Source: an uncultured Fidelibacterota bacterium
GTDB taxonomy: Bacteria; Fidelibacterota; Marinisomatia; Marinisomatales; Marinisomataceae
DNA: 36,668 nucleotides
Assembly: GCA_902624575.1 (NCBI GenBank)
Contig: CACNXV010000006.1
Span: forward strand, 1 to 36,668
Direction: 5' to 3'
The notes under the pieces are model-generated. The model had not been told where the DNA came from. It saw nothing but the letters and a program-made list of their open reading frames with translations, and searched no databases. A program made the position numbers and the translations under genes. Positions within the stretch are counted from its first letter, which is position 1. The number at the start of each line of letters is the position of its first letter. This document shows positions 8,558 through 27,649 of this stretch, piece after piece.

Positions 8558-10281
8558 ACTGATATTGAACCTTTCCTAAAATCTGTTTTTGATAAATGTA
8601 CATTTATTAAAACTGGAAGACCGTTAGCTGCATCTTTTTTTGCTGCTTTAATAATTGTTTCAATGTCATTTTGGTTGTCAATAAAATAACCTACACCACC
8701 ATATCCTTCAACGACTTTCTCGTATGAAGTAAATTCTAATTTTGTACCAATATTGCTACCTAACATCGATTTTTGTTCTCTTGCTATTTGTTGCCATGAT
8801 GCATCGTTCCCTACAATTGCAATTACTGGCAGACTGTGTCTGCACATTGTATCAAACTCTGCTAGACTATATGCGCTAGCGCCATCTCCATATAAAATCC
8901 AAACTTCTTTGTGCGGAAATGAAGACTTAGCTCCAATGGCAAATCCACCACCAACACCTAAAGTTCCAAATGGTCCTGGATCTAACCATTCTAATGGATG
9001 ATTTGGATTTATTACATAAGAAGCAGTTCCGACAAAATCTCCTCCATCAGCTACAATAATACTTTCGTTACTCTTAAGCTCATTAATTTTTTTACATAAG
9101 TAAATCGGGTTTACTTTATCATAAATTGCAGAAGAATCATTTAAAATTTCATTTTCTCTTTTTTTATTTAAATCTTTTAATTCATTTTTCCATTCATTGC
9201 AATTTGGTGCATTTATAATTTTACCAATTTCATGCATAATAACCGCAGGATCCCCTAGAATTGATAAATCTGGTTTTTTATTTAAAATCAAATCATTTTT
9301 ACTCTTGTTGATTGCAACATATTCTGCCTCACGATTAAAAGAAAAACCATAATTTAATCTAAAATCTAAAGGAACTCCTAAAGCAACAATAACGTCTGCA
9401 TTTTTAAGTGCATGCCTTCTGTTATGCCTATAAAAAAAATCATGTTTGTTGTTAAAACATCCTCTGGCCATCCCTGAAGTAAAAGTTGGTACTTGAAGTT
9501 TTTTTAAGCTTTTACGAAACATTGATAAATAACCTTTATTTTGAGTTACCTGATTTCCACAAATGAAAACAGGTTTTTTCGCTTTAACAATTTTTAAAGC
9601 AGCTTGATCTATTTTTTTTTGATTTAAACTGAAATTTTTATTTTCCAATATTGCTATAGAAGAACTTTTTTTTGAAAATAAATCATTTAAATATTTATTT
9701 ACATACCAATACTTAATTTTATTAAAAAAACCATTTTTTGATAATTTATTTGAGAATTCTTTTCTTATATCCTCTTCCGGATATAATAAATCTATTGGCA
9801 GTTCTATAAAAATAGGCCCTGGAACGCCCGATTTTGCCTCATTAAGCGCATTTTGAACTACAGGAACAATATCACGCACCCTTTTTACAGAAACAGCTTT
9901 TTTAACGTATTTTTTAAATAATGAAAGTTGGTCGATATCTTGTAGAGAGCCTTTTCCTTTTAACAAAGTTGCTGCTGCACCTCCAAAAAGAACTAGTGGT
10001 GATTGTGCCATTTGTGCATTTTTGACTGCCGTAACAGTATTTGTAACTCCGGGGCCAGCAGTAACTACTGCAACGCCAACAGAATCTGTAATTCTAGAAA
10101 CAGCATCTGCTGCAAATACTGTTGTTGCTTCATCTCTAACTTGAATAATCTCAATATCAAGTTTTTCACAACCAACTAAAATTGGAGATATGTGTCCTCC
10201 GCAGAGCGTAAAGATTTTATTTACACCATTTTTATTTAAACAAGAGGCAATGGCAAATCCAGCGTGATTTTGTTCAGACAT
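8554..10281 (-). CDS. thiamine diphosphate-dependent enzyme (acetolactate synthase / 2-hydroxyacyl-CoA lyase-like)
   Basis: [13 protein letters not shown] catalytic Glu region, [22 protein letters not shown] ThDP motif. Confidence 0.88.
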
Positions 10282-10283
10282 CT

Positions 10284-11957
10284 CTAGCTATTATTTGAAG
10301 CTATATCACTACTAACATCATTTGTTAGAATAGATGAATACGTTCCTTGATTTTCCAAAATATCTATGGCTTTTAGTACAACCTTATCGTCCTTCAAATA
10401 AACTTTATATCTTCCATTATAACCATCAAAGAAAAAAGCAAATTCTCCAACAATCATTCGTTGAATTAATTTTTTTTCGCTTTCAAACATTGTTGACTGA
10501 GTTTTCTCAATTTGTTTTTCAATTACACTGAAAGCATTATTAATAAATAAATTCTTTTCTTTATCTTTCGATAATTTTTCTTTGGCTTTTTCGAGATCAT
10601 CCTGACCATCTATGTAACCAAAAATTTTATTTTCAACAATATAGTTTTCAAAATTTATCATTAACTCGTCATCTTTTTGTACATCATCTATAGATGAATA
10701 TTTTGCACTATTTTGTTGCACAAATTTAAAATATGCGCCATTTCTTAATATTGCAGATGCTAATGGATATGTACCTTCATCGCTTACTTCAACATCTGGA
10801 TAAATTCCTCCACCTCCAATAACTTCTCTCCCTGCCTTTGTTTGAAATAAAGAGTCGGAAACTACAAGTGAATTAGCTACCAAATCATCATCGATAAAAT
10901 CTCTCTTTTGAATTGATCTGCCACTAGGAATAAAATATTTTGAATTGGTTATTTTTAATGCCGTATCCTGACTAATACCAATAACAGTCTGCACTAAACC
11001 TTTTCCAAATGATTCGCTTCCAATTATTACTGCTCTATCATGGTCTTGAAGGACACCAGCAACAATTTCACTAGCTGAAGCACTTCCTCCATTAATCAAA
11101 ACAGCTAATTTTAAATTTTCTGGAACAAGAGCTGTTGTCTTTGACTTATAATTTTTAACGCTTCTACCTTGCCTTCCTTTTGTTGATACTAAATCAAGAT
11201 TTTGCGGTAAAACTAAATCTAACATATCTAAAGAAGCAGATAAAAGACCTCCTGGGTTATCTCTTAAATCGATAATAATACTCTCTGAACCAAGTGAAAT
11301 TAAATCTATAATAGCATTTTTTGTCTCGTCTGCAGTATTTAATGAAAAATTAGTTATTCTTAAATAACCAACATTATCGTTTACCATTCCAAAATAAGGA
11401 ATATCTTTAATAGTAATAATATCTCTTATAATTGTATAATCTTGGATTTCACCAGATACAGGTTTTTTAATGGTTAAAATTACAGGTGTACCTTTATCTC
11501 CCCTAATCTTGCTTGTCGCATCTTTAAGCTCAAGACCTTTGGTTGCTTCACCATCAATTTTCATAATTGCATCACCAGTATAGATTCCAGATCTGGAAGC
11601 TGGAGAACCTTCAATTGGGCCAACAACTGTAAGTTGATCCTCGTACATATAAATTTCAAGCCCAACACCGCTAAATTCACCTTCCGTTTTAACAGACAAG
11701 TCTTCTAAATCTTTTTCTTCATAATATTCTGTATAAGGATCAAAATTTGATAGCATTGAATCAATAACTCTTGTAGTCAATTCTTTAATATCCAATTCAT
11801 GTATATATTCAGTTAATAAGTATTTATATACAGTCATAATTTGTTGCTGAGATCTAGCTATTTCTCTGTAAATATCTAGTTGCTGGCTTTGCAAAAAGGA
11901 AAAAGATAAGACTCCCAAAAAAAATATGGAAAAAATTAATTTTTTAAATCTATTCAT
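10284..11957 (-). CDS. S41-family C-terminal processing peptidase with PDZ domain
   Basis: FDPYTEYYEEKDLEDL, PDZ GVGLEIYMYEDQLTVVGPIEGSPASRSGI, catalytic region NGGSASASEIVAGVLQDHDRAVIIGSESFGKGLVQ. Confidence 0.92.
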   Translation of the reverse strand: MNRFKKLIFSIFFLGVLSFSFLQSQQLDIYREIARSQQQIMTVYKYLLTEYIHELDIKELTTRVIDSMLSNFDPYTEYYEEKDLEDLSVKTEGEFSGVGLEIYMYEDQLTVVGPIEGSPASRSGIYTGDAIMKIDGEATKGLELKDATSKIRGDKGTPVILTIKKPVSGEIQDYTIIRDIITIKDIPYFGMVNDNVGYLRITNFSLNTADETKNAIIDLISLGSESIIIDLRDNPGGLLSASLDMLDLVLPQNLDLVSTKGRQGRSVKNYKSKTTALVPENLKLAVLINGGSASASEIVAGVLQDHDRAVIIGSESFGKGLVQTVIGISQDTALKITNSKYFIPSGRSIQKRDFIDDDLVANSLVVSDSLFQTKAGREVIGGGGIYPDVEVSDEGTYPLASAILRNGAYFKFVQQNSAKYSSIDDVQKDDELMINFENYIVENKIFGYIDGQDDLEKAKEKLSKDKEKNLFINNAFSVIEKQIEKTQSTMFESEKKLIQRMIVGEFAFFFDGYNGRYKVYLKDDKVVLKAIDILENQGTYSSILTNDVSSDIASNNS

Positions 11958-12595
11958 AAATTGAATTTTGAATTAATATGATTCCAGATTTCAATTTTTA
12001 TTTCTTCAATAGTTTGCTCACCGTTGATAACAATAACACGATCTGGCTCACTTTTGCTGAGCATTAAATATTGATCTCTTACTCTTTGTTGAAAGTCATC
12101 GCCTTCACTTTCTATTCTATCTCTTGCTACTGACATTCTCATATTCGCAACTTCAACAGGTATATCGATGAAGAAAGTTAAATCTGGTTTTAAAGTATAA
12201 GTTCCAAAATGGTTAATATCACTCAATGACTTAACGCTTAAACCTCTTCCTCCACCTTGATAAGCAACTGTTGAGTCAGCATATCTATCTGCCACAACCC
12301 ATTTACCATCAATAATTTGAGGAAGAATAACTTTGTCTGTAAGTTGCGCTCTGCTAGCTATCATTAATAAAGCTTCTGCTCTGTCTGACATTGATTCCTC
12401 AGCATGTAAAAGTAATTTTCTTATCGATTCTGAAATTGGATCTCCACCAGGTTCTCTAACAAGCTTTGCCGATAAACCTGCTTCAACTAATCCGTCAATG
12501 ATATATTCTGCTTGGGTTGTTTTACCGCAACCATCAATACCTTCCACAGTTATAAATTTTCCGCTAGAAATTGATTCTGTCATCATTTTTTCCAA
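11954..12595 (-). CDS. tmk: thymidylate kinase
   Basis: FITVEGIDGCGKTTQ P-loop, VREPGGDPISE, DRYADSTVAYQGGGRGL. True start probably 12586 (MTESISS...) or nearby. Confidence 0.93.
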   Translation of the reverse strand: MEKMMTESISSGKFITVEGIDGCGKTTQAEYIIDGLVEAGLSAKLVREPGGDPISESIRKLLLHAEESMSDRAEALLMIASRAQLTDKVILPQIIDGKWVVADRYADSTVAYQGGGRGLSVKSLSDINHFGTYTLKPDLTFFIDIPVEVANMRMSVARDRIESEGDDFQQRVRDQYLMLSKSEPDRVIVINGEQTIEEIKIEIWNHINSKFNL

Positions 12596-13256
12596 TCATA
12601 ATTACTATTTCGCCTTTAACTGACTTTTTTGAAAATTCTTGTATAACATCCTTTAAATTACCTCTAATAATTTCTTCATACAACTTTGTTAATTCTCTTC
12701 CAATTGCTACCTGTCTATTTCCTAATATTTCAAACAATTGATTTAAAGTTTTTAGAAGTCGATGAGGGCTTTCGAAAAGAATAATAGTATTATTAATTTC
12801 ACTTAATTGTTCAATTTTTTTAATTCTTCCTTTTTTTTGAGGAAGAAAACCCACAAAAGTAAATGAATCTGAAGGTAAACCTGCAACACTTAGTGCTGCA
12901 GTTACAGCAGATGGACCGGGTATTGGAACTATATCTACACCTTTTTTAACACACTCTCTTATCAATCTATATCCTGGATCACTTACAGTTGGGGTACCTG
13001 CATCTGATATCAAAGCAACATCATTTCCACTTTCAAGTAAATTTGTCAATTTTTCAACTTCAGAATCTTTACTGTGGTCGTGGTAACTGTAAATTTTCTT
13101 ATCAATATTATAATGATTTAAAAGCTTTTTAGATACCCTAGTATCTTCTGCAAAAATAAAATCAACACTATTTAAGGTATCAACAGCTCTGTAAGTTATA
13201 TCAGCAAGGTTTCCAATGGGTGTTCCCACAACGAAAAGCTTTCCAAAAGATGACAT
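12564..13256 (-). CDS. rsmI: 16S rRNA (cytidine1402-2'-O)-methyltransferase
   Basis: LFVVGTPIGNLADIT, EDTRVSKKLL, LISDAGTPTVSDPGYRLI, PGPSAVTAALS. Confidence 0.93.
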   Translation of the reverse strand: MSSFGKLFVVGTPIGNLADITYRAVDTLNSVDFIFAEDTRVSKKLLNHYNIDKKIYSYHDHSKDSEVEKLTNLLESGNDVALISDAGTPTVSDPGYRLIRECVKKGVDIVPIPGPSAVTAALSVAGLPSDSFTFVGFLPQKKGRIKKIEQLSEINNTIILFESPHRLLKTLNQLFEILGNRQVAIGRELTKLYEEIIRGNLKDVIQEFSKKSVKGEIVIMIGKNDDRINF

Positions 13257-13257
13257 T

Positions 13258-14562
13258 TTAAAGTTTTTTAAAGGCTCTTCTAAAACAATTCATACCAAAG
13301 TCAATGTCGTCTTCGGTTACATTAAGATGAGGTCTAAATCTTATAGAATAATTACCAGAACCTAGTAATATAGAACCTTCGTCCATTAAGTGATTTGCTA
13401 AATGATCTCTCTTTTCACTAGACGGCAAGTCAAAGGCACAGTACAATCCTTGACCTCTAGCATTTGAAACTAAATTTGGGAATTCATGTTGAAGATCTTG
13501 TAAGCTTTTAAGTAAATATTTTCCGGTTTGGGCTGCTTTGTCAACAAGGTTTTCTTTCTCAATAAGTTCAAGATAGATTGTCAATCTAACCATATCAACT
13601 AGACTACCTCCCCAAGTAGAGTTTATTCTTGATGATTCTCTAAAAACATTACCTTCTACCTCATCAAACCTTTTACTAGCTGCAACTCCGCACACTTGTG
13701 TTTTTTTACCGAAAGATATAATATCTGGATTAGCTCCTTCAAAATTTTGATGAGCCCACATCTTACCGGTAACTCCCACTCCAGTTTGTACTTCATCATA
13801 TATTAAAATAATATCATTTTCATCAGCAATATGTCTGAGTGATTGCATGAATTCATTCCTAAAGTGATTATCTCCACCTTCGCCTTGAATTGGTTCAATA
13901 ATTATTGAAGCGATATTATCAGGATGAGATTTTATTGCATCTTTTATCTCTTTAACAGCCTTTTCTTCAAGCTTAATTATATCATCGAGATTGTCTTCAA
14001 GTGGAAATGTAATTTTAGGATTTGTAACCCTAGGCCAATCAAATTTTGGGAAGTACATTGTTTTTCTTTTGTCTGGCGAATCTGTTAAAGACATTGTATA
14101 ACCTGTTCTTCCATGAAAACATTGTTTAAAATGAATAACTTTATCACCCTTTGCAGAGCTACCTTTTTCTAGATTCTTTCTTCTTTTCCAGTCAAATGCA
14201 GCTTTCAAGGCATTTTCTACAGCTAAACCACCACCTTCAATAAAAAAGGACATAGGAAGATATTCTGGTTGAGCAACTCTGTTAAAAGTTTGAACAAATT
14301 CTGCCATTTCCTGTGAGTATACATCCGAATTCGTAGGTTTGTTTATTGCTGCAACTTTTAACCTATCAGCTTGTTCTACAACATAAGGGTGATTATAGCC
14401 AACTGACAATGAAGCAAACATAGAAAATAAGTCTAAATACTCTTTACCTGATACTTTATCAACAAGCCAAGAACCATGGGATTTTTCCAAGTCAATGATT
14501 GGAGACATTCCATCAGCGAGCATACTTTTAGCTATTACATTTCTTATTTCAGACTTTTTCAT
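13258..14562 (-). CDS. lat: L-lysine 6-transaminase-like class III PLP aminotransferase
   Basis: FFIEGGGLAVENALKAAFDWKRRKN, FHGRTGYTMSLTDSPDKRKTMYFPKF, DEVQTGVGVTGKMWAHQ, FGKKTQVCG. Confidence 0.82.
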   Translation of the reverse strand: MKKSEIRNVIAKSMLADGMSPIIDLEKSHGSWLVDKVSGKEYLDLFSMFASLSVGYNHPYVVEQADRLKVAAINKPTNSDVYSQEMAEFVQTFNRVAQPEYLPMSFFIEGGGLAVENALKAAFDWKRRKNLEKGSSAKGDKVIHFKQCFHGRTGYTMSLTDSPDKRKTMYFPKFDWPRVTNPKITFPLEDNLDDIIKLEEKAVKEIKDAIKSHPDNIASIIIEPIQGEGGDNHFRNEFMQSLRHIADENDIILIYDEVQTGVGVTGKMWAHQNFEGANPDIISFGKKTQVCGVAASKRFDEVEGNVFRESSRINSTWGGSLVDMVRLTIYLELIEKENLVDKAAQTGKYLLKSLQDLQHEFPNLVSNARGQGLYCAFDLPSSEKRDHLANHLMDEGSILLGSGNYSIRFRPHLNVTEDDIDFGMNCFRRAFKKL

Positions 14563-14566
14563 TTAT

Positions 14567-15340
14567 TTAGTTTTCCTTTTTTTCAGGATTTTGAAATGAC
14601 CAAAAACCAAGGATGATAACAATGAATGCCATCATAAAAAATGTACCATAATTATATTCTGGTGATGAGAACAAAATTAAGTCATTAAAACGACCAATTA
14701 AAAGAGAAATTCTTCCCATAACAGCAAAGCCAAATGATGCACCAAAACTTATCATTAAGAAGTAAATACCAACTCTTGTAAACTTACCATATGAACCAGA
14801 TTGTTCTCTTGAAAAATAGAAATACATTAAAGCACTCAAAGTACCTATTAAAATAACTAAATTATTAAAAACACTATCTCCAGACATGTTAAAAATTGGT
14901 AAAGTTCCACTAAAGAGATCTACAGCACTAGCACTAATTTGACTAAGTACATTTGAATTAAGATAACCATATGCTTTCAAACCTGCAGCAATACCTACAG
15001 TGTAAGCAATTCCCCATCTTGCCATCCAATTAAACTGTTTAAAAATACTCAATAACATCATGATTCCAAGAACCAGAGGAAATATGTAAAGAATGTTAAA
15101 ATCGTGATTAAAGTCCACTTCGGCAATGAAAGACAATGGACCATCTTTTGGAAATAATCTACCAAATAAGTTTGGATAAATTTGCGTCCAATAAAAAGTT
15201 GCTGCCCAATAAGCCGCAGAAACACCTACAAAGATATGCTCTGCAATTTTGTAAAAAGGATTATCTCTGTACAAATATGAAAGAATTCCTAAGGTAAGGA
15301 AAGCGGCAATCCACGCACCAAAAATTGTAGAAAAAGCCAT
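14567..15340 (-). CDS. polytopic membrane protein of unknown function (module component)
   Basis: 257 aa with multiple hydrophobic segments (VGVSAAYWAATFYW...); 1 nt from the next module gene. Confidence 0.8.
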   Translation of the reverse strand: MAFSTIFGAWIAAFLTLGILSYLYRDNPFYKIAEHIFVGVSAAYWAATFYWTQIYPNLFGRLFPKDGPLSFIAEVDFNHDFNILYIFPLVLGIMMLLSIFKQFNWMARWGIAYTVGIAAGLKAYGYLNSNVLSQISASAVDLFSGTLPIFNMSGDSVFNNLVILIGTLSALMYFYFSREQSGSYGKFTRVGIYFLMISFGASFGFAVMGRISLLIGRFNDLILFSSPEYNYGTFFMMAFIVIILGFWSFQNPEKKEN

Positions 15341-15341
15341 A

Positions 15342-16184
15342 TTAATACTTCCTCTCTCTTCTTTCAGTTATGAAATAAGCTAGGTTACCTAAAACAATAA
15401 ATAATACTATTACCAGGTGTGCAAATGACTGTGCAGCCATTCCTTGAATAGCAATACCTGGTCTTGAAATCATTGACTCGTACTCTGCTGCACCTGGCAT
15501 TCCTGCTAAAACACCTTTTATTTGTCCACTTTGAACATAAGGCATCACTTCATTAACTTGAATTGAAGTTGTGCCTGATGAAAGAGGTACACCAGTTGGA
15601 TCTCCACCGTATTGAACCCATTCAAAAGTTCCTGGATATCCAGCAGAGCCAGTAAAAATAAATTGAAAATCTTTTAAATTATTAATTCCTTCCATCATTG
15701 GAATATCTTCTAGCATTGTTCCTTTAGAGTCAACTGTGTAAACTTTTCTAAGATCACTTGCTAATCCTTTTACAATAGCCTCATTACCTGGCCTGAAACC
15801 AAGTAGTACATAATCTTCATATTCTGTTAGTTCAAACTCTTGATTTATCTCTTCCAAAGCATCAAGAGCCATATATAGCCCATCAGGCCACAAGCAAGTT
15901 ATATAAATTTGATGATCGTCTCTTAGCAACTGTCTCATTACCCCTAAAGTCATTGGATGAATTTCAGGTTTCGTACTTGGACCATAATCAAATGACATTA
16001 AGACTTTTGAATTTGAGGGAATTGCTTCAATAGCATCATATACTTTCCTTGTTGTAGGAGTCTCTTTTATAGGTAAATCTACAGGTCTCAATAGAGGAAT
16101 TAAAACAGCTAATCCAATTAATAAAAAGATAAATCTTCTATCAACAGAACCTAATTTTAGTATCATATCTTCAAATAATCTCAT
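15342..16184 (-). CDS. membrane-anchored protein of unknown function: TM helices at both ends flanking a soluble domain (module component)
   Basis: N-terminal FIFLLIGLAVLIPLL and C-terminal FAHLVIVLFIVLGNLAYF helices; about 210-aa domain between. Confidence 0.8.
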   Translation of the reverse strand: MRLFEDMILKLGSVDRRFIFLLIGLAVLIPLLRPVDLPIKETPTTRKVYDAIEAIPSNSKVLMSFDYGPSTKPEIHPMTLGVMRQLLRDDHQIYITCLWPDGLYMALDALEEINQEFELTEYEDYVLLGFRPGNEAIVKGLASDLRKVYTVDSKGTMLEDIPMMEGINNLKDFQFIFTGSAGYPGTFEWVQYGGDPTGVPLSSGTTSIQVNEVMPYVQSGQIKGVLAGMPGAAEYESMISRPGIAIQGMAAQSFAHLVIVLFIVLGNLAYFITERRERKY

Positions 16185-17083
16185 TGGTCACCTATGTAAG
16201 ATTTTTCAAGTCCAAAAATGTAACGTAAACTAGTTACAATAATTCCTAAACCAATTCCAATCATTATAGCTCTCGCCCCAGCAAGATTTGGAACAGTATA
16301 AATCCATTCTTGTAAAGATGGTAGGTAGAAAATAGCAGGTTCTGTTGGATTCCAACCCATACTTGTTCCCATAACAGTTACAAGGGCTAACCCAGCAACA
16401 AAAACACCAAAAACAATTTTTCTACTTTTAAGATAAGTATTTGCAAAAATCGTGGCAACAAAGACTAATAAATACATTATCATCCATGGAGTTATTAATC
16501 CACCAATTGGCACTCTTCCTAACATGATAATAATTCCTGCTAGAAGTAGTAAAGTTGCTTCAAAATTTCTAGCTCTAAATGCTCTGTAAGAGGCTGAAGC
16601 TACATAAAATGCTAACAACGCAAACATTGTAGCTGATAAAGGTGTAAAAATATTATCAAACATCCATTTAAATAATCCGCCTTCAGTTGAAATGTGTGCT
16701 CCCCACTCAACAGCTCTAACAGAATCAGAAGAGCCTGAAGCAAGCAGTGCATTTTCAGCAGCTCTTTGAGTAAAGAAAACTTCTTCACCAACAAAGAATG
16801 CACCTTTCATAAAAAATCCAATTATAAAAGCAAAGAAGAAAGAAGCTATTGCAATTACACTATACTGCCAACCTGATTGTCTTTTAACAACTTTAAGAAA
16901 TTGAAGTTTTAGGAGGTTTAACGCTCCAAGAAAAATTGCAAAACTTGCAATAATATCATACCATTGAGTGGCATCATCATTAACAAACGCTTCAATAGAT
17001 TCATTTTCAATAAACCAACCAAACAGGGTTAAAGAACCAAAGAAAGCTACAATCCCAATCGGTATATATCTTCTTAAAATCAT
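16181..17083 (-). CDS. polytopic membrane protein of unknown function (module component)
   Basis: 300 aa, many TM-like segments; 4-nt overlap with downstream gene. Confidence 0.8.
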   Translation of the reverse strand: MILRRYIPIGIVAFFGSLTLFGWFIENESIEAFVNDDATQWYDIIASFAIFLGALNLLKLQFLKVVKRQSGWQYSVIAIASFFFAFIIGFFMKGAFFVGEEVFFTQRAAENALLASGSSDSVRAVEWGAHISTEGGLFKWMFDNIFTPLSATMFALLAFYVASASYRAFRARNFEATLLLLAGIIIMLGRVPIGGLITPWMIMYLLVFVATIFANTYLKSRKIVFGVFVAGLALVTVMGTSMGWNPTEPAIFYLPSLQEWIYTVPNLAGARAIMIGIGLGIIVTSLRYIFGLEKSYIGDQ

Positions 17084-17084
17084 A

Positions 17085-17963
17085 CTAGAGGCCTAAAAAG
17101 TTTAAAAGATTAAAATTAGTTAGTCCTAAATCATAAAGTGCTCTAGAAACTAAAGCAGCTCCTATAAAGCTGATCAATATTAGTTTAACCATATCTTGTG
17201 TTTTCACACCAGCAATTAGTTCTGGTTTTCTTGATAAATATGCACTAGCAGCAAAATACTCTTCTCCCATTAGAGTGTAGTCACATGCTGTAACAAAAAA
17301 TGGTATTTGAGCTTGTGATGCTGTACCAGCTATCTGAATTGCTCCTATACTATTTCCAGTTTCAGCAAATAATAATGACTCAGCATAGAATTTACCCATA
17401 TACATACAAGCGGCAGGTTTGTCTCTTTGCATTATTCCATTTACACCTGCAGCGTAAGCAAATTGATCATCTGTAACATAATGCACCATATCCTCTTTAA
17501 ACATTTCAGGTCTACCTTGTGTAAGATATGCTTCTTTACATGATTCACGAGCAGCTTGCATAACAATTGATCTTGCAACCGGGACATCTAAATTTGTCTC
17601 ATATTGCGCAGTCATTTGTGCAACGTGACCTAAAATAATTACACCTGCTACAGTCTCTACCTCATTCATATCCATAATTCCAGGTACGTATAATATAGGT
17701 CTACCCATTTCCGTTGATCTTCCAACAGCTTCTTCAACTGCTTTAAGTCCCGGAATTGTTCTAAGAAAAATTGAGTCTGAAGAAATTCTTGCCTGATTTA
17801 CTTCATTAAACATTACCATTATAATAGTTAGTAGTAAGATAAACATTACAGATCTTTCAGACTTGAAAAAATGAATTGAATCAGGAAGTGATGAAAGTAA
17901 AAAAGTGAACAAAGAAATTCCTACAAAGCCTAAAATATATGTTTTTAATTGCTGATTATTCAT
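17085..17963 (-). CDS. membrane protein resembling DUF6754 type (module component)
   Basis: Central soluble domain GRPILYVPGIMDMNEVETVAGV...FVTACDYTLMGEEYFAASAYLS between terminal TM segments; family name recalled, not searched. Confidence 0.65.
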   Translation of the reverse strand: MNNQQLKTYILGFVGISLFTFLLSSLPDSIHFFKSERSVMFILLLTIIMVMFNEVNQARISSDSIFLRTIPGLKAVEEAVGRSTEMGRPILYVPGIMDMNEVETVAGVIILGHVAQMTAQYETNLDVPVARSIVMQAARESCKEAYLTQGRPEMFKEDMVHYVTDDQFAYAAGVNGIMQRDKPAACMYMGKFYAESLLFAETGNSIGAIQIAGTASQAQIPFFVTACDYTLMGEEYFAASAYLSRKPELIAGVKTQDMVKLILISFIGAALVSRALYDLGLTNFNLLNFLGL

Positions 17964-18225
17964 TTTTACCTAATTTTTCTAACTCGCAGATTAAAAATTC
18001 AACACTTGATTGTTCTTCAAATAATTCTGCAGCTCTATAATAACCATCTGTTTTGACAAATGCACTAATAATCGGCCCGAAAAATACCATTGTTTGACTT
18101 CCAATAAAATTTAAAGGCTTTGCCATCTCTAAAAAAAAGATTGAGGGTGTAATCATTTGGTACTCAAAAATTTTTTTTGCCAACCTTGATAAAAAGTTTT
18201 TATCGTCTTGAGTTAAAGCACTCAT
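17956..18225 (-). CDS. small 89-aa protein with hydrophobic centre (module component)
   Basis: TPSIFFLEMAKPLNFIGSQTMVFFGPIISAF; overlaps both neighbours (4 nt and 8 nt). Confidence 0.7.
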   Translation of the reverse strand: MSALTQDDKNFLSRLAKKIFEYQMITPSIFFLEMAKPLNFIGSQTMVFFGPIISAFVKTDGYYRAAELFEEQSSVEFLICELEKLGKNE

Positions 18226-19346
18226 TGCAATTCAACCATTTCAAGGTTTGCTCTAGGTATTAAAGTTTTGACTCCATCAATATCTATTTCAGCAACTCTT
18301 ACCATAGTCTCAGACTCCATCTTATTAAGCTCTGATGGCAAAGCAGTAACTTTTCCAATTTTTCCAAAGTTTGGAGAGCGAATCACTCTTACTGTACTAC
18401 CCTCCTGAATTCCTTCTGGCTCTTTTGATACTGAATCTTCATCCATAGTTGATCCTTGAACTGGGATAACAATTTCAGGTCTTATAACTCCAGCTCTAAT
18501 TTGCGTTGCTCCATTTACTGATGCATCATTGCCATTATTTTCTTTCAATAAGTTAAAAGTTGCGTCGCTCATAGGAATGGAGCCATATCCTTCTGTGACA
18601 ATTAATGCTGTAGGAAGTTTTTCAGTCCCAGTGATAGCAACACCTAAGTCATAGCCAAGAACAGCCTTTAAATCATAATAGTTAAAACCGCCTACAACAA
18701 TTCCAGCAACATTACATTTCATTGCTTTTTTATAGGCTTCAAGACTTAAAAATGATCCGCCAATCAAAATTTTTCCAGCCATACTATCATTAATTTGCTC
18801 AGCTGTAAGTTCTTCATTTGCATTTTTAGAAACTAATTCTAATGAACCTCTTTTTTCTCCAGCAATTCCGAAAATTCCTTGAATAAAAGCTGCATCAGAT
18901 TTTAATATAATCCCTTCTTTTTCGATAACTTCGTCAACAGATCCACTTACATAAGCATCAACTTCTACTGGTATTGGTGCTTCTCTAACAACTACTCTTC
19001 CAGTCGCTTCTGATATAGATTCAATAGTGCCATCAACTGGTGATTCAACTGAAGATTTAAACATCCCAAAGATGCCTGGAGTCTCTGCAATCATATCTCC
19101 TTTTTTTACATCATCACCTTCTTTTACAACCAAACAATCAATTACATCGCTAGGTTCAATATTCAAAATATTATTTACTTTTAGCATTTGAACATTTCCT
19201 GGAAGATTAGTTGATGCAACAACAGTATCAGGAGACAGACTATCTCCCTTTTTAACCAAAACCTCTCCTTTAAGAGGAAGAATTCTTTCTTTTCTAAAAA
19301 GTGTCTTTTTTAAAACTTTTAATCCAGGTGTATATGAATGTGCCAT
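18222..19346 (-). CDS. soluble protein with two barrel-sandwich (lipoyl/RnfC-like) segments and a C-terminal KOW-like domain (module component)
   Basis: GEVLVKKGDSLSPDTVVA; VKEGDDVKKGDMIAE; SPVDGTIESISEATGRVVVRE; C-terminal VRVIRSPNFGKIGKVTALP. Confidence 0.65.
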   Translation of the reverse strand: MAHSYTPGLKVLKKTLFRKERILPLKGEVLVKKGDSLSPDTVVASTNLPGNVQMLKVNNILNIEPSDVIDCLVVKEGDDVKKGDMIAETPGIFGMFKSSVESPVDGTIESISEATGRVVVREAPIPVEVDAYVSGSVDEVIEKEGIILKSDAAFIQGIFGIAGEKRGSLELVSKNANEELTAEQINDSMAGKILIGGSFLSLEAYKKAMKCNVAGIVVGGFNYYDLKAVLGYDLGVAITGTEKLPTALIVTEGYGSIPMSDATFNLLKENNGNDASVNGATQIRAGVIRPEIVIPVQGSTMDEDSVSKEPEGIQEGSTVRVIRSPNFGKIGKVTALPSELNKMESETMVRVAEIDIDGVKTLIPRANLEMVELQ

Positions 19347-21172
19347 TAGAATAAATCTCCTTTTGGATATTCATCTACTGAATTTGACCAATTTAATAAG
19401 CTTTCAATTCTTTCAGATGAATCGGTTGATAAAGTAATTGGTCTGTTTCTACCATCAAAAATAAGTCCAACAACTCCGCCAAAAATTACTGATTCTAAAG
19501 ATTCACCCTTCCCAGCTCCAACATCAATTCCTCGAGAAGGTTTTATACTAACTTGAACTTCTTCATAAGGAACCTCTAGCATTTCAAGTGAACCTTCTAA
19601 AATTTCAATTTGCTTTGTGGAGCCGTCTTTAAATGTCATAGAAACATCAGCCATCTTAGATCCAGGTTTTGCCTTTCCAACTGGAGTAACACATGTCCCT
19701 AATCTAATTAAACAGTCATTATCAAAAACCTCTAAAGCTGCCTGACTAGCATCATCCTTTAGATCATCTTTATCAATATTTGCAAGTACTCCCAATTGCG
19801 GCATCATAAAAATTGAATCAACAGCAAGTTGCGTTATTCCTTCAGGCATAAACGCGTCAATTAACATTCTAGCTGACTGTTGTCTTCTAGGTGCATGAGA
19901 TAAGACGCCTCCAGAACCAACGAGCAAATCAAGATCCATCATATTTACAAGTGATTGACCACTTGAAGACTGCTCAAAAGCATCGGAAATGGTTCGCTCT
20001 GATTGAACACCTTTTAAGCTAGTTGCAAATGCTTTATGTTGAATAAAGGAAAGTCTTAGCGCTTCCCTGGCAATTGCTTGTTCAATAACTAGCTCTTCTA
20101 ATGATTGTGGAACAGTTGTCGGCCTAATCATTTTATTACCGATTCTATTAGTCAGTTCGCTTCTATCAATATCAAAAGGAACCCATCTCAAGACATTATC
20201 AAGTCCAGATTCTGCAAGAACATTACAAATTGAATAACTCATCCCAAGATTTGCACTTACAGTTCTGTTAAATTTTTCTTCAAAAACTGAGAAAATGTCT
20301 GTAGTAGCGCCACCAATATCAACACCTACAACAGAAATTTTTTCCTTTTTAGCAATCATTTCAATTAATGAACCAACTGCTCCAGGTGTAGGCATTATTG
20401 GTGCATCAGTCCATGACATTAATTTTTTATAACCTGGTGCTTGAGCCATAACATGCTCCATAAAAAGATCGTGAATTTTATCTCTTGATGGCTCTAAATT
20501 TTCTTGTTCTAAAACTGGTCTAATATTATCAACAATATCTAAATCAGATATCTCTCCAAGTGTTTCTCTTATAGAGTCTTGAGCTTTATTATTTCCTGCA
20601 TAAATAACAGGTAATTTATAATTTTGACCAAGTCTTGGTCTAGGATTTGCAGCAGCTAAAATTTCAGCTAACTCCATTACGTGAGTGGTAGTACCACCAT
20701 CCGTTCCTCCAGAAAGTAAAATCATATCAGGTCTTAATTGACGAATTCTTGTAATTTTTTCATGCGGCAACCTTCCATCATTAGATGCGAGTACATCCAT
20801 AACAATTGAGCCGGCACCTAATGCAGCTCTTTCTGCACTTTCTCCTGACATTGACTTGACAACTCCAGCAACCATCATTTGTAAACCACCCCCAGCAGAG
20901 CTTGTTGAAACGTAAATATCAACACCTTTAGATCCATTATCAGGTGTAATGATTTTATCTCCATCAAGAATAGTTCTTCCTGAAAGTTCTTCTACTTCCA
21001 TTACTGCATTTAAAACACCTTTAGTAACATCTTCAAAAGGAGCTTCAACAGTAGTAGGTGCCTCACCACGAAAAGTTAATCGATAACGATCATCTTTCCA
21101 CTCAATGAGAATTGCTTTTGTAGTTGTACTTCCGCAGTCTGTTGCTAAAATTGATTTAATTTTTTTACTCAT
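19346..21172 (-). CDS. GlmL/MutL-family ASKHA-fold ATPase-like protein (module component)
   Basis: ATDCGSTTTKAILIEW, VGVDIGGATTDIFSVF, LLSGGTDGG, LLVGSGGVLSHAPRR motifs. Confidence 0.85.
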   Translation of the reverse strand: MSKKIKSILATDCGSTTTKAILIEWKDDRYRLTFRGEAPTTVEAPFEDVTKGVLNAVMEVEELSGRTILDGDKIITPDNGSKGVDIYVSTSSAGGGLQMMVAGVVKSMSGESAERAALGAGSIVMDVLASNDGRLPHEKITRIRQLRPDMILLSGGTDGGTTTHVMELAEILAAANPRPRLGQNYKLPVIYAGNNKAQDSIRETLGEISDLDIVDNIRPVLEQENLEPSRDKIHDLFMEHVMAQAPGYKKLMSWTDAPIMPTPGAVGSLIEMIAKKEKISVVGVDIGGATTDIFSVFEEKFNRTVSANLGMSYSICNVLAESGLDNVLRWVPFDIDRSELTNRIGNKMIRPTTVPQSLEELVIEQAIAREALRLSFIQHKAFATSLKGVQSERTISDAFEQSSSGQSLVNMMDLDLLVGSGGVLSHAPRRQQSARMLIDAFMPEGITQLAVDSIFMMPQLGVLANIDKDDLKDDASQAALEVFDNDCLIRLGTCVTPVGKAKPGSKMADVSMTFKDGSTKQIEILEGSLEMLEVPYEEVQVSIKPSRGIDVGAGKGESLESVIFGGVVGLIFDGRNRPITLSTDSSERIESLLNWSNSVDEYPKGDLF

Positions 21173-21834
21173 AAATAATAAGCATAAACATAAAACAATG
21201 TAACCGGTGTTGTCAATATTAAAGAGTCTAATCTATCAAACATTCCTCCGTGACCCATCAAAATATTTGAAGAATCTTTTATTTTGGCTTTTCTTTTAAG
21301 ATAAGATTCAAAACTATCTCCAAAAAAACCAACTACATTGCATATAAAAATCATGACGTATTTGTCGACCATACTAATTTGATAGTTAGTAAATATTGGT
21401 AAAATATATTCATTACAGTAGGAGAAAAAAATTATTGAACCAACTAAACCACCAAAAAAACCTGAAACTGTTTTGTTTGGACTGATATTTGGTAAAATTT
21501 TGGGTCCTTTGAGCAATTTACCCACAATAAAAGCCATAGAATCATTAATCATTACACCAGAAAAAAGCAAAAATGTAAAAAAAGATAAAATTTGATCATC
21601 TATCGTTCTCAAATAAATCAAACTAATCATACTACCTAAAATGTAAATAATCCCAAAAACAAACCATTTGTTATAGCTGCTAAAAGTTTTAATTAACTTT
21701 ACGTACTCTTGAAATGCGAGCAAGTAGCAAAAGATTACAATAGCAAAAAATATAAGTATATGGTTTATTATTAAAAAAATAATAGAGGGAAACCCAATTA
21801 AACCGATTACTATTCTTGAAGTAAGTGAACTCAT
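21169..21834 (-). CDS. cdsA: phosphatidate cytidylyltransferase
   Basis: SPNKTVSGFFGGLVGS and C-terminal GDSFESYLKRKAKIKDSSNILMGHGGMFDRLDSL signature. Confidence 0.9.
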   Translation of the reverse strand: MSSLTSRIVIGLIGFPSIIFLIINHILIFFAIVIFCYLLAFQEYVKLIKTFSSYNKWFVFGIIYILGSMISLIYLRTIDDQILSFFTFLLFSGVMINDSMAFIVGKLLKGPKILPNISPNKTVSGFFGGLVGSIIFFSYCNEYILPIFTNYQISMVDKYVMIFICNVVGFFGDSFESYLKRKAKIKDSSNILMGHGGMFDRLDSLILTTPVTLFYVYAYYL

Positions 21835-21859
21835 AAAAACAAAATAATTAATGTAAAAT

Positions 21860-22747
21860 TCAAATCAAAAGTTTAAATGCTTTTGGTAAAATATCAACAG
21901 ATGCAACCTGGCTTTCAACAATGTCACCATCAATGTTATAAAAAGTCTTATAGCCCGGGTCAATGCAAAAGGTCTTTACTTGAATGCTGCTCACATATGG
22001 TAATTCAATATGAGAACCATCATATACTTTCTTAAAAACTTTAGCAATTTGTAATCTAGAAATATTTTCGTTTACCAAAACTAAGTCCATTTTCCCATCG
22101 AAAAACCCTCCTTTTGGTGCAACTTTCATTCCCTTTCCTGTGTGAATACTGTTACATCCAACAATAAATGCACATGTTCTCTTTTTTTCTTCATTATCGA
22201 TCGTAATTCTAGCAGTATGCATTTTTTTTTCAATTAAAGTTATAATTGACGCTACATCATATCTAATTGGACCGAGCCAACGTAATTTTTCAGCTCTAAT
22301 ATTACCATAAGAAAACATACCCCACCCTAAGACACTGACGCTCAACCTATTAAAGCTATCAAATTTTACATTATTTAAATCGGCTTTTTTGTAATTTTCT
22401 CCTAGAGCAGCATCAAGCGCATCTTTAATTTTTAGTAATCCTAGATCATGCATGACTGAATTTCCTGATCCGGTAGGCATTATTCCAATTTTATATTTTT
22501 CTAATTTGTCAATTTCAAACAACTTATTTAGAACATCATTTATTGAACCATCACCACCAAAAATTAAAATTCTATCAATATCATTTGGAAGTGATTCAAT
22601 GATTTTTTCTACGTGTCCGGCATATTTAGAGAGAAATAAAATAGGTTTAAAATTCCTCTGATTAATCTCATTTTCAACTTCATAATATACTTTAAGTGAT
22701 TTCTTTAAACCACTCACAGGATTGACAATACAAGCAATTTTTTTCAT
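21860..22747 (-). CDS. diacylglycerol/lipid kinase family protein
   Basis: NPVSGLKKS, ILIFGGDGSINDVLN, GIMPTGSGNSVMHDLG. Confidence 0.88.
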   Translation of the reverse strand: MKKIACIVNPVSGLKKSLKVYYEVENEINQRNFKPILFLSKYAGHVEKIIESLPNDIDRILIFGGDGSINDVLNKLFEIDKLEKYKIGIMPTGSGNSVMHDLGLLKIKDALDAALGENYKKADLNNVKFDSFNRLSVSVLGWGMFSYGNIRAEKLRWLGPIRYDVASIITLIEKKMHTARITIDNEEKKRTCAFIVGCNSIHTGKGMKVAPKGGFFDGKMDLVLVNENISRLQIAKVFKKVYDGSHIELPYVSSIQVKTFCIDPGYKTFYNIDGDIVESQVASVDILPKAFKLLI

Positions 22748-26161: not shown

Positions 26162-27649
26162 ATGAAATCTCTACTGATTGTTTTAGGAAATCAATTATTC
26201 GATAAATCTCATCATCCTGAAGATATAACTGATATTTTTATGTGCGAAGATTTTGATCTTTGTACATATGAAAAGCATCACAAAAAGAAGATTTCTTTCT
26301 TTTTAACCGCTATGAGAGAATATAAAGATGAAATGATTAATTCAGGTTATAATGTTATCTATAAAGATTTTGACGATGCATTCAAAGAATCCTATATATC
26401 AAAGCTTCAAAAAAGTATTGAAGATATTAAGCCTGATAAAATTTACATTTTTCAGATCGAAGATAAGAATTTTGAAGGTGAGCTCATTTCTTTCATTGAT
26501 GAACAAAAATTAGATTTTGAGATACTCCAAACACCAATGTTTATTCACAGCAGAAGATATTTCAATGATTATCAAGAAAATAGGAAAACATTACTTCTTG
26601 AAAATTTCTATAGGAAAACTAGAAAAGAGTTGGATATTTTAATGGAAGATGGTCAACCAGTTGGTGGTCAATGGAACTATGATGAATTAAACAGAAAAAA
26701 AATTCCAAAAGGTCTTGAAATTCCAAATAATTCAACGTTCACGAGTAAATATCTCAAAACAGTTAACAATTTTATTTTAGAAAATTTTTCAAATCATCCT
26801 GGTGAATTAAGTGATGAATTTTGGGTACCATTTTCAAGGAAAGAAGCTTTAGCTTATCTTGAACATTTCTTTAAAATAAAATTTGAACTATTTGGTCCTT
26901 ATGAAGATGCTATTTACGAAAATCATAGCTTTTTATTTCATTCAGCAATAAGCCCACTATTAAACATAGGACTTTTGACACCTGAAGATGTAATTACAAA
27001 AGCTATTAAATATAGTAAAGAAAATAATATTTCTATTAACTCTGTAGAAGGATTTGTAAGACAAATAATGGGTTGGAGAGAATTCATCAGAGGCGTTTAC
27101 CAAAGCAGAAGTCAAGATCAAATAGGTAAAAATTTCTTTAATAACGATAGAATGTTAACTAAAGATTGGTATGAAGGTACCACTGGTATTGACCCGCTTG
27201 ATGATGCAATTAAACTCACTTTAAAGCATGGTTATACACACCACATTAATAGATTGATGGTTATATCAAATGTAATGAATCTATCCGGAATTCATCCTGA
27301 TGAAATATATAAATGGTTTATGGAAATGTTTGTTGACTCTTCAGAATGGGTCATGGTTCCAAATGTTTATGGAATGGGAACATTTGCAGACGGAGGAGTA
27401 TTTTCTACTAAACCCTATATTTGCGGATCTAGTTATATGATTAAAATGAGTAATTTCAAAAAAGGACCATGGTGCGATATTGTTGATGGACTTTATTGGT
27501 CTTTTATTAAAAATAATTTAGACTATTTTAAAACTAATCCAAGACTTGCTGTGATGCCTAGGGCTCTTGAACGGTTAAAAGATGAACGAAAAGAACTAAT
27601 TTTTAGTGCATCTGAGAATTTTTTAAAAGAAAAAACTACTTCTTCTTAA
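26162..27649 (+). CDS. cryptochrome/photolyase-related protein (DPRP / FeS-BCP-like family)
   Basis: LLIVLGNQLFDKSH N-terminus, VEGFVRQIMGWREFIRGVY, MFVDSSEWVMVPNVYGMGTFADGG, GLYWSFI. Confidence 0.88.
   Translation: MKSLLIVLGNQLFDKSHHPEDITDIFMCEDFDLCTYEKHHKKKISFFLTAMREYKDEMINSGYNVIYKDFDDAFKESYISKLQKSIEDIKPDKIYIFQIEDKNFEGELISFIDEQKLDFEILQTPMFIHSRRYFNDYQENRKTLLLENFYRKTRKELDILMEDGQPVGGQWNYDELNRKKIPKGLEIPNNSTFTSKYLKTVNNFILENFSNHPGELSDEFWVPFSRKEALAYLEHFFKIKFELFGPYEDAIYENHSFLFHSAISPLLNIGLLTPEDVITKAIKYSKENNISINSVEGFVRQIMGWREFIRGVYQSRSQDQIGKNFFNNDRMLTKDWYEGTTGIDPLDDAIKLTLKHGYTHHINRLMVISNVMNLSGIHPDEIYKWFMEMFVDSSEWVMVPNVYGMGTFADGGVFSTKPYICGSSYMIKMSNFKKGPWCDIVDGLYWSFIKNNLDYFKTNPRLAVMPRALERLKDERKELIFSASENFLKEKTTSS

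Follow-up and report, generated by a model that had tools for sequence, protein, structure and literature searches.

An orphan MutL-type ATPase is encoded with a barrel-sandwich protein and four membrane proteins in a two-part module recurring across many bacterial phyla

The window analysed here is a stretch of 36,668 nucleotides (contig CACNXV010000006.1) from a member of the Marinimicrobia (Fidelibacterota), whose assembly of 667 kb is 72% complete. Seven genes, labelled A to G in transcription order, are all located on its minus strand at positions 14567-21172 and encode an ATPase of the MutL superfamily, a barrel-sandwich protein, a small protein and four membrane proteins. The arrangement is far beyond chance, because many phyla contain this gene set together. 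Two sub-units, A-B and D-E-F-G, which can be unlinked or multiplied, plus the small C, describe the module better than one fixed seven-gene complex does. D is a member of a named DUF family (domain of unknown function) and A of a known superfamily; the system as a whole is probably new, since A falls outside both GlmL and Or-4 and since no counterpart of E, F, G or the assembly is described in the papers and libraries searched, its function being inferred. The genes are as follows.

19346..21172, minus strand: gene A, long-form ASKHA ATPase of the MutL/GlmL family, 608 residues (PF13941, NCBIfam)
18222..19346, minus strand: gene B, barrel-sandwich and KOW protein, 374 residues, no transmembrane (TM) segment (weak profile matches, recurrent in relatives)
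17956..18225, minus strand: gene C, small protein, 89 residues, no TM segment, no family, with a conserved core
17085..17963, minus strand: gene D, DUF6754 protein, 292 residues, three TM helices (PF20539, E=2.4e-108; AlphaFold model)
16181..17083, minus strand: gene E, polytopic membrane protein, 300 residues, no family, about 7 hydrophobic segments
15342..16184, minus strand: gene F, TM helix, periplasmic alpha/beta domain, TM helix, 280 residues, no family (AlphaFold; positive-inside rule)
14567..15340, minus strand: gene G, polytopic membrane protein, 257 residues, no family, 5-6 hydrophobic segments

An earlier note on this DNA had described seven minus-strand genes joined by overlaps or 1-nucleotide gaps, and the coordinates and all six junctions match: A and B overlap by 1 nucleotide (TAATG), B and C by 4, C and D by 8 and E and F by 4, with gaps of 1 nucleotide between D and E and between F and G. 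The upstream CdsA gene overlaps gene A by 4 nucleotides as well. Such packing is common in this small genome and would be in keeping with seven housekeeping genes brought together by chance or through operon growth specific to the lineage. This explanation is contradicted by the cross-phylum survey, in which the same set is found in several orders, with fusion, block duplication and joint loss, and it is considered hardly credible.

In this survey, an alignment of DUF6754 was scanned against 84,980 species genomes, giving at least 574 confirmed matches on genome contigs from many phyla. The 80 loci retained are the nearest relatives of the Marinimicrobia query, and proportions among them are not unbiased. 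They include Zixibacteria, Riflebacteria, WOR-3/Stahlbacteria, Eisenbacteria, Fermentibacteria, Coatesbacteria, Gemmatimonadota, Phycisphaerae and Acidobacteriota, together with metagenome-assembled genomes (MAGs) labelled Methylomirabilis, Caldithrix and Deltaproteobacteria. A lack of co-occurrence outside the lineage had been named beforehand as grounds for abandoning the idea of a module; the genes co-occur far beyond the lineage, in many phyla. D-E-F-G are contiguous in 44 of the 46 loci from outside Marinimicrobia, and two or three tandem copies are present in 13 of the 46. The A-B pair is located before, after or away from D-G, the orders A-B-C-D-E-F-G, C-A-B-D-E-F-G and D-E-F-G-C-A-B all being observed. 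Where A is not beside D-G (20 genomes), a MutL protein over the cut-off is encoded elsewhere in 17, mostly as a frame of about 600 residues.

Within the phylum, A-B and D-E-F-G are gained and lost together. DUF6754 is found in 92 of 149 genomes and MutL, over the cut-off, in 97: both are present in all 92 DUF6754 genomes, MutL alone in 5, whose assemblies are 72-89% complete, and neither in 52 (Fisher p about 1e-34, phylogeny ignored). At a completeness of at least 90%, B is present in 8/8 module-positive and 0/12 module-negative genomes; the latter include six species of one genus, where the module was lost or never present. Genus g6 of family f3 is module-free (G048, G072, G104, G106, G114 and G117; 90-96% complete) and is without A, B and D, unlike its sister genera, which makes it a natural experiment in gene loss.

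The division into two sub-units is apparent from fusion and duplication. In four Marinimicrobia genomes (L144-L147) of four other families, A and B form one uninterrupted frame of 977-1031 codons (about 1000 residues), which strongly indicates that the two act as a single unit. In a quick tree the fused proteins cluster with the MutLs of Phycisphaerae, with a support of 100 in the approximate likelihood ratio test (SH-aLRT), and in the two of these genomes where the upstream end is covered C precedes the fusion, as in Phycisphaerae. This clustering and shared placement of C suggest that the fused form may be a second version of the module, transferred between phyla. A divergent family of MutL-B fusions (910-1030 residues; L148:510-3458, L149:924-4010 and L150:815-3577) is found, with no adjacent D-E-F-G, in MAGs of Zixibacteria, Eisenbacteria and Sabulitectum. 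D-E-F-G belong together as well, being contiguous in nearly all loci and multiplied as a block. The dedicated complex proposed earlier is supported, in the refined form of sub-units A-B and D-E-F-G.

Gene A is a member of the MutL superfamily, with a match to Pfam PF13941 of 417 bits (E=1e-124, cut-off 27). It scores 220.8 bits against NCBIfam GlmL (NF040745), under the equivalog cut-off of 475, and 209.3 bits against Or-4 (NF040744), an ornithine-degradation protein of the same superfamily whose equivalog cut-off is 600. GlmL, the accessory protein of methylaspartate/glutamate mutase, shares with A the PF13941 domain, the ATP motifs and 26-30% identity over the ATPase part; its canonical counterparts of the two phosphate motifs are D-GST-TK and D-GGATTD. 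The motifs of A and its additional C-terminal part are the following.

21116..21139, minus strand: phosphate-1 motif DCGSTTTK (residues 12-19), shared by 90% or more of 42 module MutLs
20297..20320, minus strand: phosphate-2 motif DIGGATTD (residues 285-292), conserved in module MutLs
19883..19921, minus strand: adenosine-motif region VGSGGVLSHAPRR (residues 418-430), of which GSGGVLSHAPRR is conserved in module MutLs
19349..19765, minus strand: C-terminal extension (residues 470-608), absent from canonical GlmL

All three ATP motifs are intact across the 42 module MutLs; the ASKHA phosphate and adenosine motifs had first been noticed in the single copy. Module MutLs measure about 600 residues against 461-467 in six GlmL-type proteins, which are without the C-terminal extension of about 130 residues. 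In the quick tree they form a compact separate clade distant from GlmL, the closest MutL relatives of A being from Fidelibacterota/Marinimicrobia. Unlike GlmL, A is without glmS or glmE and is partnered with B and membrane proteins. The suggestion that a MutL homologue had been repurposed here is supported by the separate clade, by the scores under both the GlmL and Or-4 cut-offs and by the extension that GlmL lacks.

The MutL of the window is an orphan. Reference GlmLs are located in glmS-glmL-glmE operons, and no B12-binding match is present in the window's own genome, a 72% complete assembly with a single MutL. As this genome is incomplete, ten near-complete siblings (87-98% completeness) were inspected in addition. 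Each contains one strong B12-binding protein, two of them with an additional weak or partial match. The three strong proteins tested are the C-terminal subunit of methylmalonyl-CoA mutase, McmA (TIGR00640, E about 1e-45). MeaB, the chaperone proper to methylmalonyl-CoA mutase (on the role of this G-protein family, see PMC10356863), is found in 10/10 siblings. No GlmE over the cut-off is present in the 149 phylum genomes, 15 of which contain weak matches under the cut-off in frames of about 330-570 residues. The absence of GlmS and GlmE reported for the window is thus extended to the phylum for GlmE, and glmS/glmE reliably located elsewhere in the same genomes, which would have spoken for the classical role, were looked for and not found. 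An ordinary GlmL-like chaperone of a B12 enzyme encoded elsewhere, with the membrane genes as mere neighbours, would account for the PF13941 domain and the GlmL-type ASKHA motifs of A. It is made very unlikely by the lack of GlmE, by the separate clade with its extra domain and by siblings whose strong B12-binding protein is a methylmalonyl-CoA mutase subunit served by MeaB; sibling G122 retains the B12-binding protein and MeaB, yet is without MutL and DUF6754, and the Riflebacteria genome G171 encodes two short MutLs plus one long MutL.

Gene B is characterized by weak similarities that become clearer among its relatives, which are 45-82% identical to the window copy and share a nearly invariant core, NGATQIRAGV-RPE. 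In the window copy, the Pfam matches to RnfC_N (24.3 bits against a cut-off of 25.6), biotin/lipoyl (two stretches) and KOW are all under the curated cut-offs. RnfC_N is found in 16 of 21 relatives (best E=5.6e-7) and KOW in 10 of 21. Two barrel-sandwich segments and a KOW-like end had been proposed for B; these recur in relatives and are below the cut-offs in the window copy itself.

18972..19133, minus strand: barrel-sandwich segment of B (residues 72-125; RnfC_N at 72-117, Biotin_lipoyl at 73-125)
18345..18401, minus strand: KOW-like C-terminal segment of B (residues 316-334; KOW E=0.011 for the window copy and 2.1e-4 for the best relative)

B is weakly similar to RnfC and NqrA, the cytoplasmic barrel-sandwich subunits of membrane redox pumps, and like them it is a soluble protein beside polytopic membrane proteins; unlike theirs, its partner is an ATPase. 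Family library scans detected no iron-sulphur, ferredoxin or other Rnf/Nqr domain or partner subunit in any module protein. A search of PDB with a profile of 21 relatives of B gave nothing significant. A NusG-like assignment was dismissed: phmmer matched B to NusG of Thermotoga (E=5e-4), and the 21-relative profile failed to reproduce this match. The core of C, PAIFFLE-KPL-F-GSQ-MVFFGPI, is conserved in several phyla. In several phyla C is adjoined by one more small membrane protein, about 140-150 residues long (L068, 6230-6697, with similar genes in L062, L064, L069, L113 and L115); it resembles bacterial PH-type (YdbT-like) proteins by eye, and the copy tested is without a Pfam match.

Four membrane proteins had been announced for the module, and four with conserved topology are present, which agrees with the description of an envelope complex; one of them can now be given its Pfam name. 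D is a full member of DUF6754 (PF20539), scoring 361.6 bits against a cut-off of 27. C, E, F and G have no match over the curated cut-offs of Pfam and NCBIfam. PDB profile searches with D, E, F and G gave nothing significant. The AlphaFold model of D (pLDDT 88) has three TM helices in addition to a six-strand alpha/beta domain, without a match in PDB at E<=0.001. This domain is placed in the cytoplasm by the charges following the second TM helix, where 4.3 lysines plus arginines are found against 1.0 acidic residues (80 sequences). Outside the phylum, D mostly starts with a signal-like segment and often contains a secreted, N-terminal FN3-like domain (fn3 over the cut-off in L115), both absent in the window's lineage. 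The model of F (pLDDT 95.9, pTM 0.90) consists of a six-strand alpha/beta domain between two TM helices, and the charges at both termini place the domain in the periplasm according to the positive-inside rule.

17226..17768, minus strand: cytoplasmic six-strand alpha/beta domain of D (residues 66-246; AlphaFold, positive-inside rule)
15456..16067, minus strand: periplasmic alpha/beta domain of F (residues 40-243), with conserved loops at strand C-terminal ends

The TM-domain-TM layout that had been noted for two of the membrane proteins, here D and F, is consequently modified: the positive-inside rule places the two domains on opposite faces of the membrane, and the D model has three TM helices. 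Conserved positions of F cluster in loops at the C-terminal strand ends, to a degree attained by 3 of 203 circular shifts, and this pattern resembles the ligand site of Rossmann-like domains. One PDB match of F (5.9e-4) was dismissed on its TM-score of 0.17. Homology of D and F, considered on account of a same predicted fold class and a by-eye resemblance of motifs, received no support from profile comparison (hhalign probability about 1). E, with about 7 hydrophobic segments, has the conserved motifs FALLAFFVASASYRAFR and AG-RAIMIGIGLG, and G, with 5-6, the motif SFLYKDNPFYK-AEH-FVGVSAGYW.

The following mechanism is proposed, to which we attach an even chance: the module would be an inner-membrane machine of two sub-units, A-B acting on D-E-F-G through conformational changes similar to those of the ASKHA reactivases. 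In these, ATP hydrolysis loosens a partner subunit and the bound cofactor is released; the reactivase of diol/glycerol dehydratase, a chaperone-like ASKHA ATPase, has a swivelling domain and is joined by an alpha/beta partner subunit (PMC7674605). A-B is likewise proposed to open a partner complex in an ATP-dependent way, and the A-B fusion recalls the combination of ATPase and swivelling domain. That reactivase is soluble, acts on B12 dehydratases and has no membrane subunits, only the ASKHA part being shared with the module. In the module, A-B would be a soluble cytoplasmic ATPase unit docking on D-E-F-G, with C as a small adaptor. Binding and hydrolysis of ATP by A would shift the barrel-sandwich domains of B against the cytoplasmic alpha/beta domain of D, which would thereby be opened or reset, and E and G would relay this movement to the domain of F in the periplasm. 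Each cycle may load, release or move a small ligand bound by the domains of D and F, and duplication of the D-G block would allow several ligands to be served by one ATPase unit. That the complex is ATP-driven, as claimed in the earlier note, would follow from the intact ATP-binding motifs and the A-B fusion. Because Opp and OPT transporters adjoin the module, the ligand might be a peptide or a peptide-derived compound, a guess that we rate as rather doubtful.

The neighbourhood survey of the loci revealed no constant functional neighbour across phyla. CdsA precedes A in most loci of Marinimicrobia; Phycisphaerae have PlsX and fatty-acid genes as neighbours, and Riflebacteria have Wzz. A peptide-transport theme is recurrent: SBP_bac_5, OppB and OppC lie directly before A in L049 and L061, an OppD-type gene directly follows G in several Marinimicrobia, and SBP_bac_5, OppD and OppF precede D-E-F-G in three Riflebacteria-type loci. 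By hand count, roughly 22 sampled genomes from five families encode SBP_bac_5 at a distance of about 6 kb or less from MutL. OPT genes adjoin D-G in L108 and the divergent MutL-B fusion of L155, a C69 peptidase adjoins that of L154, and C69 and M28 peptidases are located beside other loci. These genes would be expected if the module were an accessory of peptide uptake that powers an Opp/Dpp ABC importer or an OPT transporter or processes its cargo. Such an accessory of Opp/Dpp should always accompany SBP_bac_5 and the Opp permeases, and the window's genus keeps the module with SBP_bac_5 in 0/12 genomes; SBP_bac_5 is moreover common in module-free genomes, and in most other phyla no peptide gene adjoins the module. 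This role is accordingly regarded as unlikely. The peptide-transport theme is a weak hint and is not obligatory, because the window's genus is without SBP_bac_5.

This absence of the peptide-transporter neighbourhood from the window's genus also weighs against the mechanism proposed above, as do several other points. A chromosome-level Zixibacteria record (L072/G151) contains two D-E-F-G sets, and a genome-wide search found no MutL match in it and none over the cut-off in L067 and L106, the remainder of the 20 genomes mentioned above; A may not be strictly needed, or the L072 assembly may be flawed. A ligand pocket in D is unproven, because D is evenly conserved, without a focus on the strand ends (the excess is reached by 70 of 180 circular shifts), and profile comparison detects no homology of D and F. 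In L072 the two sets (9203-18735) are separated by NfeD, SPFH/Band-7 and CBS-like genes.

In a regulatory or positional role, A-B would be an ATP-dependent switch of the FtsA/MreB/PilM type that reports on or positions D-E-F-G, the envelope being sensed through F and the FN3-like domain of D, with no transport. The FN3-like and periplasmic domains suit sensing, and some neighbours belong to signalling or the envelope (DUF4388 in WOR-3; MotA/TolQ/ExbB and ExbD/TolR beside B-A in Zixibacteria L094; NfeD and SPFH in L072). The module is nevertheless without a kinase, receiver or output domain, its neighbours vary between phyla, and the strongly conserved cytoplasmic domain of D resembles a working site more than a sensor linker; this role is possible, at a likelihood that we place well below even. 

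Other genes of the window were recorded. Directly downstream of the module, at 13258-14562, an L-lysine 6-transaminase is encoded (TIGR03251, 637 bits), which recurs close to the module in many loci of Marinimicrobia. The upstream side (21169-22747) holds CdsA and a lipid kinase of the YegS/DagK type, both conserved neighbours in Marinimicrobia. A photolyase-related gene (DPRP, PF04244) is located on the plus strand at 26162-27649.

Searches of an open-access library by family name or accession, which a paper using other gene names could escape, found nothing on the module or its families, and DUF6754 is not named in the papers searched. The module may represent a new class of membrane machine, in which a MutL-type ASKHA ATPase, fused to or paired with a barrel-sandwich protein, drives a four-protein transmembrane complex with an alpha/beta domain on each side of the membrane, in many mostly uncultured phyla and with block-duplicated complexes for different ligands; we judge this marginally less probable than an even chance. 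The marker gene DUF6754 is widespread, and three of the seven proteins are without a family. Of 119 Planctomycetota genomes sampled, 31 carry DUF6754; as this phylum has cultured members, the question is accessible to gene deletion. If the proposal is true, GlmL-type ASKHA ATPases, known as soluble helpers of B12 enzymes, would have a second use at the membrane.

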